Part shown: positions 32,789 to 35,347 of the stretch, piece by piece
How positions within the stretch are numbered: the first letter of the stretch is position 1
Layout of the letters: each line of letters opens with the position of its first letter
DNA from: Alphaproteobacteria bacterium
Lineage (GTDB): Bacteria; Pseudomonadota; Alphaproteobacteria; UBA8366; GCA-2717185
Assembly (NCBI GenBank): GCA_028822585.1
Contig: JAPKDL010000016.1
Location: forward strand, 1-43,574
Length of the DNA: 43,574 bases
Direction: 5' to 3'
Position numbers and translations under genes: made by a program
The notes under the pieces: generated by a model
Seen by the model: only the letters and a program-made list of their open reading frames with translations
The model's database searches: none
Told to the model about the DNA's origin: nothing

Positions 32789-33412
32789 TTAGGTCGCGAC
32801 GGTGGAAAGCGTCTCGATCAGATCCCGGATGATCGTGCCCGGCGTTGGCGACCGCATTACAGAGCCCATCACGGCGACCCCCGCCGCCCCCGCGCGGACG
32901 CAATCGGCGGCGTTGTCCACCGTCACGCCGCCGAGCGCCAACACCGGCGCGCGGATGGCCTGCGTCATAACCCTCAAATTTTCCAGCCCCAGCGCCGGGC
33001 CGTATCCCGGTTTGCTATCGGTCAGGAAAATCGGGCTCATGGTGACGTAGTTCGCCCCTTCTGCGATGGCAGTTTGCGCTTCAGCCAATGAATGTGTGGA
33101 CGCACCAATCAACATCTGTGCGCCCACAACCCGGCGAACTGTCGCCACCGGCTCCCTTTGTGGCAAATGAACGCCGGGAATTTTACAGAGCGATGCTGCG
33201 GTATAGTTGCTATTCACGGTCACCGCAGCACCAAAATCGGCCGAAAGGGCGACAATAGAATCAAGTAACGGACACAATTCAGCCGTCGCCATTTTTTTTT
33301 CCCGCACCATAATCCATCGGCACCCGGCCTCCAGCGCCTCCAAAATTACGGCATCGAAAGGGAGCGTGGTGTTATTCCGGTCGGTAATCAACAACAAGGA
33401 AGGGGCGGCCAT
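32789..33412 (-). CDS. Thiamine phosphate synthase-like (ThiE/TenI) protein
   Basis: A 207-residue TIM-barrel protein. Residues 36-41 hold VREK (ThiE consensus Q-x-R-x-K is altered to M-V-R-E-K), PGVHLPQRE follows, and NYVTMSPIFLTDSKPGYGPA resembles the G-P-I/V-F-x-T-x-(S)K phosphate-binding loop. LALGGVTVDNAADCVRAGA is the usual A-I-G-G-I segment, and GVAVMGSVM ends the barrel. The normal Asn-Asp-Arg diphosphate contact appears as NSN. This suggests a ThiE/TenI paralogue, either a synthase with divergent substrate binding or a TenI-type aminase/tautomerase. No other thi genes lie near. An FNR-type box is centred 58 bases upstream of the start. Confidence 0.8.
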   Translation of the reverse strand: MAAPSLLLITDRNNTTLPFDAVILEALEAGCRWIMVREKKMATAELCPLLDSIVALSADFGAAVTVNSNYTAASLCKIPGVHLPQREPVATVRRVVGAQMLIGASTHSLAEAQTAIAEGANYVTMSPIFLTDSKPGYGPALGLENLRVMTQAIRAPVLALGGVTVDNAADCVRAGAAGVAVMGSVMRSPTPGTIIRDLIETLSTVAT

Positions 33413-33463
33413 GGTCTTTAATTCAGCCTTATTTAATGAGACTTCGATAATTTATGCGTTCAC

Positions 33464-33477
33464 TTGACATAGATCAA
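33464..33477. promoter_or_regulatory. FNR/CRP-family binding box
   Basis: TTGACATAGATCAA matches the FNR-type palindrome TTGAT-N4-ATCAA with one half-site mismatch (C for T), and TTGAC is a common variant in alphaproteobacterial FnrL sites. It lies in the gap between the ThiE-like gene (minus) and the broken MarR-like gene (plus). Centred about 58 bases from the ThiE start, it could place an activated promoter 41 bases away with a leader of about 17 bases. A target on the plus strand is also possible. Confidence 0.6.
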
Positions 33478-33687
33478 TTCATGACGCGCTGCCATCGCCT
33501 AAAGTGAAAATGTTGAAAGAAGAGAGCACGTCAGTGTCTCCCTTCCCCTCTGCTCCATAACCGAGTCACGTCCCATGCCTGACCCATTTCGATTCATATT
33601 TACAACAGTGTTAATTCTCGCCTAAGGGGGATGCAAATTTAATTCAGTTTAGTATGTTGACGGAATATTTTTGAAAGGGCGACAGGA

Positions 33688-34085
33688 ATGGCGCTGAAGT
33701 ACACGGCGGCACAGCGCAAACTTTACCTTGGCATGACCGATAACATCGGCGCCAATTGGGTCGACGTGTTTCAAGGCGACACCGAATTCTACAGCACCGC
33801 CTACTGGGACTTGCTGACCAATATCTGGTGCCAGGACGAAGCAGTTTGCAAAACCGACGCTCTACAGTTTATGACCAGACTCAAAAGCGCCCATACTGCC
33901 GGAAAATATATCGAGTCGGCGTTGCAGCGCGGATTTCTTCTGGAATCCGACCCTCCCCCCGTGACGCACGATCTAAATTGCTCACATTTTCAACAGGTAT
34001 GCGGGCCAGCCTGGACCAGTTTTTCGACCTCGCGGTCGACGATGTTCAACAAATGAGCGCCGCCCCCCTCCACCAGCCTGATTAA
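33688..34085 (+). pseudogene. MarR-like winged-helix regulator, broken by a frameshift
   Basis: The first frame from the ATG at 33688 gives AYWDLLTNIWCQDEAVCKTD and SAHTAGKYIESALQRGFLLE, a winged-helix DNA-binding core of a MarR-like family in which the SAHTAGKY helix would be the recognition helix. Downstream of a C6 run at 33955-33960 the homology moves to frame 3: PRDARSKLLTFSTGMRASL then DQFFDLAVDD, the family's wing and dimerisation helix, ending at 34085. The shift fits loss of one base (or gain of two) in or near the C-run. Unshifted, the first frame runs on to 34056 with an unrelated tail. It lies 29 bases before the Mct-like gene on the same strand, so it may once have regulated that gene. 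Confidence 0.72.
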
Positions 34086-34114
34086 ATTTCGCCACCGATA
34101 AGGATACCGTTTCC

Positions 34115-35347
34115 ATGAGCAATATTGTCAAAGGCCTTCGCGTTGTCGAAGTTTCCGCCTTCATCGCAGCCCCCTACGCCGGCTTGACCCTGGCGCAAAT
34201 GGGTGCAGACGTTATCCGTATTGATCCTGTTGGCGGCGGCCTGGATCATGGCCGATGGCCGGTCACGAAAGACGGCGTCAGCCTTTACTGGGCAGGATTA
34301 AACAAAGGCAAGCGATCAATCATGTTGAACGTCCGAACTGATGAAGGGCGCGAATTGGCGCATGGGATTATGACCGCCAGTGATTCCGATAATGGACATC
34401 CGAACGGCGGTATCGTCATCACCAATCTGCCCGCGCGCGGTTGGCTCGACTTCGAGGGATTGAGAGCGCAGCGCGAAGACTTGATCATGCTAGCGATTAC
34501 CGGCAACCGGGACGGCTCTGTCGCACTCGATTACACCGTCAATGCCGCCGCCGGTTTTCCAACCGTCACCGGCCCTGCGGATCATGACGGCCCGGTTAAC
34601 CACGTCATGCCGGTCTGGGACCTTATCGCGGGAATGACCGGTGCCAATGGGATTCTCGCCGCCGACCGTCACCGAGCGGCGACCGGCGATGGCCAGCTCA
34701 TCAAACTCGCATTGTCTGACACGGCGTTTTCCACGCTCAGCCACCTAGGATACGTGGCGGAAGTCCAGATCAACGGCGATGAACGGCCCGCCATGGGCAA
34801 TCATGTTTATGGCACTTTTGGTTGTGATTTTGAAACCAAGGGAAATCGCCGAGTCATGATTACTGCCTTCACCCCCCGCCATTGGTCCGCCCTTATTGAC
34901 GCCACGGGCACCGGTGAGCGGATCAAAAAACTGGAACAGGCGCTTGATGTTGATCTGGGCCGAGAAGATGCCCGGTTCGACGCCCGCGACGCCATTTTCA
35001 CTATCCTGAAGCCCTGGTTCCTCGCGCGCACCATCGACGAAATCCGCATCGCGTTGGACGCCGTCGGCGCGTGCTGGGGGCCCTATCAATCCTTCGCACA
35101 AGCGGTCCACGATGACCCGCGCCTGTCCACGGACAACCCAATGTTCCAAACCATCAACCAGCCCGGCGTCGGCCCATATCTAGCGTCGGGTGAAATGCTG
35201 GATTTCAGCGCCTTGCCCCGCGGCGAAACCAAACCAGCGCCACGCATAGGCGATAATACAGACGAAGTTCTAGCCTCCGTCTTAGGGCTTTCCGACGGTG
35301 AAATTGGAAAACTGCACGACAAAAAAATTGTTAGCGGCGTAATTTAA
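34115..35347 (+). CDS. CaiB/BaiF family protein, 2-methylfumaryl-CoA isomerase (Mct)-like
   Basis: A 410-residue class III CoA-transferase fold protein. Its N-terminus reads GLRVVEVSAFIAAPYAGLTL and GADVIRIDPVGGGLDHGRWP, then YWAGLNKGKRSIMLNVR. It also has ITNLPARGWLDFEGL, LDYTVNAAAGFPTVTGP with the candidate catalytic Asp139, DGPVNHVMPVWD and STDNPMFQTINQPGVG. From memory this block pattern matches 2-methylfumaryl-CoA isomerase (Mct) of Chloroflexus far better than ordinary CaiB/Frc proteins. Mct moves CoA within mesaconate between C1 and C4 in the 3-hydroxypropionate bi-cycle. The same pattern occurs in uncharacterised proteobacterial proteins, so the exact reaction is not proven. It follows a broken MarR-like gene. 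Confidence 0.82.
   Translation: MSNIVKGLRVVEVSAFIAAPYAGLTLAQMGADVIRIDPVGGGLDHGRWPVTKDGVSLYWAGLNKGKRSIMLNVRTDEGRELAHGIMTASDSDNGHPNGGIVITNLPARGWLDFEGLRAQREDLIMLAITGNRDGSVALDYTVNAAAGFPTVTGPADHDGPVNHVMPVWDLIAGMTGANGILAADRHRAATGDGQLIKLALSDTAFSTLSHLGYVAEVQINGDERPAMGNHVYGTFGCDFETKGNRRVMITAFTPRHWSALIDATGTGERIKKLEQALDVDLGREDARFDARDAIFTILKPWFLARTIDEIRIALDAVGACWGPYQSFAQAVHDDPRLSTDNPMFQTINQPGVGPYLASGEMLDFSALPRGETKPAPRIGDNTDEVLASVLGLSDGEIGKLHDKKIVSGVI

Follow-up and report, generated by a model that had tools for sequence, protein, structure and literature searches.

Is a regulator gene whose reading frame changes at a short C run a real pseudogene, or is it an intact gene that was misread? The question is raised by a regulator gene on the plus strand of an alphaproteobacterial DNA stretch of 43,574 nucleotides, which as a whole is called the window below. 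The window is one contig (C143) of a 3.8 Mb draft genome that comprises 265 contigs and is 95.7% complete.

Reading frame 1, which starts with the ATG at 33688, gives an open reading frame (ORF) of 122 amino acids with a stop ending at 34056. Its first part, the 5' piece of the gene (33688–33957), encodes dimerisation helix 1, the helix-turn-helix and the first wing strand, as assigned by a profile match and by the secondary structure of a homologue model (from genome G001). The first 90 residues of the ORF share 52 to 78% identity with 13 relatives. The frame changes at the wing tip, where the sequence and the comparison with homologues place a C6 run (33955–33960). From there the ORF continues as an out-of-frame tail (33958–34056) without counterpart in the aligned homologues. 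The second wing strand and the long C-terminal dimerisation helix (RDARSKLLTFSTGMRASLDQFFDLAVDDVQQM) are encoded in the other frame by the 3' piece (33963–34085), which is open until the stop ending at 34085.

We searched the window genome with a profile of 14 intact homologues. Positions 1–90 were matched at 33688–33957 (E = 1.2 × 10−42), and positions 89–124 were matched separately at 33954–34061 (E = 1.9 × 10−8). Because the two pieces were matched separately, the split is not a product of chance. No second frameshift was found in the gene and no stop inside either piece, and the profile search detected no second copy of the regulator in the window genome at E = 0.001. The preliminary description of this DNA had reported a MarR-like regulator split between frames at a C6 run, and the ORFs, the two profile matches and 16 unbroken homologues all confirm the split.

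The homologues came from two collections, each with a sampling depth of one genome per species. The first search covered 59 genomes and matched 15 of them, namely the window's own genome, 13 with good homologues and one with a weak match that was dropped. The second collection contributed five loci, two of which duplicated the first set. The 16 homologues correspond to 15 distinct proteins, as those of G007 and G010 are identical. Three loci were left out of the counts: L016, a weak 41-aa match in G029 with an internal stop, and L017 and L018, duplicates of G001:C412 and G002:C281. One homologue (L014) has its N-terminus cut by a contig end and retains the wing and the second segment. The alignment used for invariant columns, rate counts and the profile held 14 of the 16 homologues, without L009 and L014.

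The family of the regulator was examined by sequence and by predicted structure. In Pfam and NCBIfam scans, the window regulator and three homologues all scored below the cut-offs. The best scores of the three homologues were 14.5 bits for HTH_27 (cut-off 22.2) and 12.7 for MarR_2 (cut-off 27), so that none of the curated MarR families (Pfam MarR, MarR_2 and HTH_27, NCBIfam) claims them. An AlphaFold model of the G001 homologue, built with five sequences, had a pLDDT of 90 and a pTM of 0.80. It predicts helices at residues 7–27, 37–48, 55–59, 68–80 and 102–125 and wing strands at 84–88 and 96–100, that is, a MarR winged-helix fold with N- and C-terminal dimerisation helices for the intact homologues. 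Structural matches of the model were mainly MarR-family proteins (Foldseek TM-scores about 0.45 to 0.68; VIA-align Z up to 11.8), with matches spanning residues 1–130. The model shows the elements in the order typical of MarR proteins. The match to MepR (4l9t_A) had a Z of 11.8 with 121 aligned residues and an rmsd of 4.1; HucR and MexR were also among the matches. A sequence profile search of the PDB found the MarR-family chains 7xl9 and 2fbk (E = 0.0043). The predicted fold and the structural matches thus support the MarR-type identity proposed in the preliminary description, and the intact regulator is probably a repressor. Unlike MepR, HucR and MexR, the regulator scores below the Pfam and NCBIfam cut-offs in every protein tested, is short (about 130 aa) and is broken in the window.

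In all 16 homologues, the helix-turn-helix, the wing and the last helix share one frame. The preliminary description had considered that some homologues might naturally lack the second segment, and none of the 16 does. In the window copy, the wing and the C-terminal dimerisation helix are not in one frame with the helix-turn-helix. Because the frame change sits at the wing tip, the truncated product is without the second wing strand and without the helix at 102–125. By analogy with other MarR folds, such a product would have lost its function.

The length of the wing allows the break to be described more closely. The distance from position 88 (Glu or Asp) to the DARSK motif is exactly three codons in 16/16 homologues. 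The stretch between codon 88 and the Asp of DARSK measures 11 nt in the window and 9 nt in every homologue; the window is therefore longer by a net two bases, not shorter by one base. It had been proposed earlier that seven C would leave the gene intact. A hypothetical seven-C version does have an open frame, but it would carry one codon more than any of the 16 homologues. The C run itself is absent at this site from all 16 (13 compared by codons and three by protein).

We then estimated selection with a two-ratio codon model, which was written for this purpose and applied to seven genomes on a tree that was not inferred but set manually according to genus kinship. These tests omitted G004, whose Mct-like gene is split, G009, whose regulator is cut at a contig end, and G010, whose regulator protein is identical to that of G007. 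For the regulator, omega was 0.239 on the window branch and 0.054 elsewhere (2ΔlnL = 8.60, p-value = 0.003), and for its 88 N-terminal codons alone it was 0.323 against 0.039 (p-value = 0.001). These values are only approximate because synonymous sites are near saturation. In 200 simulations with a single omega, the regulator statistic never reached its observed value, and no significant change of omega was found when G001 or G002 was the marked branch. The downstream Mct-like gene showed no rise (0.026 on the window branch and 0.041 elsewhere, p-value = 0.14). If the omega of 0.24 is taken to average constrained and neutral periods, about a fifth of the window branch would have been unconstrained, a rough figure with synonymous distances near saturation. 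In addition, the window changes three of the 41 columns that are invariant in 14 relatives (A37T, R54C and L100F); the other sequences change 0 to 2 each.

Relative-rate counts gave a weaker signal. Window-unique amino-acid changes in the regulator numbered 16 against 4 with outgroup G002 (p-value = 0.012), 10 against 8 with G003 and 12 against 7 with G007. The counts were significant with one of three outgroups and never distinct from those of the Mct-like gene (Fisher's test, p-values from 0.34 to 1.0). The Mct-like gene had 24 changes in the window against 7 in G001 (outgroup G007, p-value = 0.003), and the thiE-like gene had 21 against 8 (outgroup G005, p-value = 0.024). Since these two genes are also faster in the window, part of the regulator excess comes from a longer branch. 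The omega test allows for this longer branch, and its result supports a relaxed constraint on the regulator in the window lineage, as judged from codon comparisons.

A broken frame, unbroken orthologues and relaxed selection are therefore all found for this gene, with the run length taken from a draft assembly. So far as the sequences can tell, the break probably marks a true pseudogene, and one that is not very fresh. A fresh inactivation, which the preliminary description had offered first, is not supported, given the relaxed selection seen in the codon test and the simulations.

The best surviving alternative is an assembly or sequencing indel in the C run, with a gene that is intact in the organism. 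The sole disruption does sit at a homopolymer, both pieces are free of stops, the draft assembly is in 265 contigs, and the Mct-like gene of G004 is likewise split in its own draft. However, the relaxed selection on the window branch is independent of the indel, and a one-base error would leave a wing of a length seen in no homologue, so that an error would need to have added two bases to match them. C and G runs can also be followed across the window, which holds 11 runs of six or more. Seven of the others fall inside open ORFs (six different ORFs, not all compared with relatives), one is part of the 3' piece of the regulator itself (34063–34068) and two lie outside the listed ORFs. A pure sequencing indel, one of the readings in the preliminary description, is less likely in view of the relaxed selection and the wing length, and we regard it as improbable. 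An indel error might still have come on top of a gene under relaxed selection.

Productive slippage, either ribosomal −1 frameshifting or transcriptional slippage at the C run, might yield some full-length regulator. In general, a C6 run would let pairing survive a −1 shift, and the profile still detects the second segment. However, joining the two frames would give a product whose wing is one residue longer, and the regulator has been under relaxed selection on the window branch; such slippage is very improbable. A conserved programmed frameshift is ruled out, as the split and the C run occur in 0/16 homologues. The proposal of a phase-variable homopolymer that toggles the regulator on and off, which has in its favour a homopolymer inside a regulator gene, is hardly credible, for C6 is short for phase-variable switches, six-C runs are not unusual in this window, the homologues are without the run, and selection on the window branch is relaxed.

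If the regulator is a decaying pseudogene, the question becomes which gene it served. Directly downstream lies a gene for a family III CoA-transferase, here called Mct-like (34115–35347, plus strand), which is open and constrained on the window branch. Its ATG at 34115 lies 29 nt past the second-frame stop of the regulator, the gap given in the preliminary description, and the intact regulator of G001 likewise ends 29 nt before the Mct-like gene. The regulator directly precedes the Mct-like gene in 9/9 same-family relatives that have the regulator (G001–G005 and G007–G010). No Mct-like gene was found beside the regulator in the other seven homologues (G019, G028, G035, G039 and L019–L021); the four G genomes among them belong to another family of the order. 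The best NCBIfam match of the Mct-like gene, nearly full length, is Mct (TIGR04253, 2-methylfumaryl-CoA isomerase/mesaconyl-CoA C1-C4 CoA transferase). Its score of 479.4 bits is below the equivalog cut-off of 725, and the substrate is only putative. The G004 copy (L026, 468–1690) is the one divided between two frames in its draft genome.

A different gene proved to be the conserved neighbour. In 12/12 homologues with a readable flank (G001, G003–G005, G007, G010, G019, G035, L019, L020, L021 and, as a fragment at a contig end, G002), a 17-kDa-antigen/glycine-zipper gene is divergent to the regulator; contig ends hide this neighbour in G008, G009, G028 and G039. Five of the 12 have no Mct-like gene beside the regulator. 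The conserved neighbour of the regulator is thus the antigen-type gene, not the Mct-like gene. The preliminary description had expected that the break would change how the Mct-like gene is controlled. This is plausible only in the family where the two genes adjoin, and the conserved partner is the antigen-type gene, which is gone from the window locus. The distance between the antigen-type gene and the regulator ranges from about 150 to about 1060 nt among homologues; in both G019 and G035, an additional ORF of >80 aa, called mechanically, separates the divergent pair. The divergent gene of G001 passes both Pfam cut-offs for the 17 kDa surface antigen/glycine-zipper 2TM proteins (PF16998 and PF05433), a family that is missing at the window locus. 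Its product is probably a lipoprotein, judging from an N-terminus that carries what we take to be a lipobox.

On its other side, the regulator of the window faces a ThiE/TenI-like gene on the minus strand (32789–33412), which borders the deleted stretch. A nine-T run (33292–33300) lies within this gene, which remains open. The gap between thiE and the regulator is 275 nt in the window and 878 nt in G001. The thiE-side flank of G001 aligns with window positions 33423–33594 and the regulator-side flank with 33624–33680, leaving an unaligned stretch at 33595–33623. G001 carries at this site a 17-kDa-antigen-type gene of 498 bp together with 123 nt of intergenic DNA. A search of the window gap for a remnant of the antigen-type gene found none (the local score of 19 was below the mean of 22.8 for shuffled sequences). 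By this comparison, about 600 bp was deleted in the window lineage, including the antigen-type gene and the adjoining part of the intergenic region. One antigen-type paralogue exists elsewhere in the window genome (C77, one match); used as a query, it gave two or more matches in each of the 12 relatives searched.

Taken with the split frame, these results make it rather probable that the MarR-fold regulator gene of the window is a true pseudogene in decay, that the antigen-type gene, its likely target, has been lost, and that the Mct-like gene was left without a neighbouring regulator. The loss of the main target may have relaxed selection on the regulator. A net length change of two bases in the wing codons has left the product without its second wing strand and its C-terminal dimerisation helix, and this frameshift is most likely part of the decay. 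The Mct-like gene is still open and constrained; its expression presumably starts from what is left of the upstream region, now without the neighbouring regulator.

A wider reading is more tentative, and we would sooner doubt it than rely on it. The MarR-type family, below all the cut-offs tested, may be devoted to the local repression of a 17-kDa glycine-zipper surface lipoprotein; in one alphaproteobacterial family the regulator also stands before an Mct-like gene. In the window lineage, the lipoprotein gene would have been deleted first, which would have allowed the repressor to decay and freed the CoA-transferase gene. Keyword searches found no paper on MarR regulators divergent to 17 kDa surface antigen or glycine zipper genes, and none that combines a MarR operator, divergent transcription, a pseudogene and alphaproteobacteria. 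Target loss with regulator decay is an event of an ordinary kind, and what is new is the gene that the regulator is likely to be truly paired with. If the main reading is right, the locus is a compact natural case in which a local repressor decays with the loss of its divergent target and the downstream gene survives. The antigen-type gene would then be the likely real target in the intact relatives, a target that is invisible from the window alone.

We also looked for binding sites upstream of the regulator. The hexamer ATGCAA, on either strand, occurs in 9 of the 11 intergenic regions taken from relatives, against 3.5 expected from shuffles; TGTCAA is likewise found in 9/11 (1.6 expected). 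Both hexamers were chosen because their enrichment ranked highest among all 6-mers. On the opposite strand, TGTCAA reads TTGACA and faces the antigen-type gene. TGCAT and ATGCA together occur 27 times against 13 expected, and the largest total of 300 shuffles was 25. The window has kept one box, ATGCAAATT (33631–33639, plus strand), as a candidate operator upstream of the regulator. The regulator may bind such an ATGCAA-type box in its own divergent promoter. A sigma-70 scan of 33400–34200 gave one match on the minus strand, no more than chance.

Another motif lies nearer to the ThiE/TenI-like gene. The 14-mer TTGACATAGATCAA at 33464–33477 is presumably an FNR/FixK-type palindrome; it alone in the window fits TTGAYNNNRATCAA, for which 0.11 matches would be expected. 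G001 and G007 carry an identical 14-mer upstream of their thiE-like genes, and G010 has one beyond the antigen-type gene (thiE was not read there).
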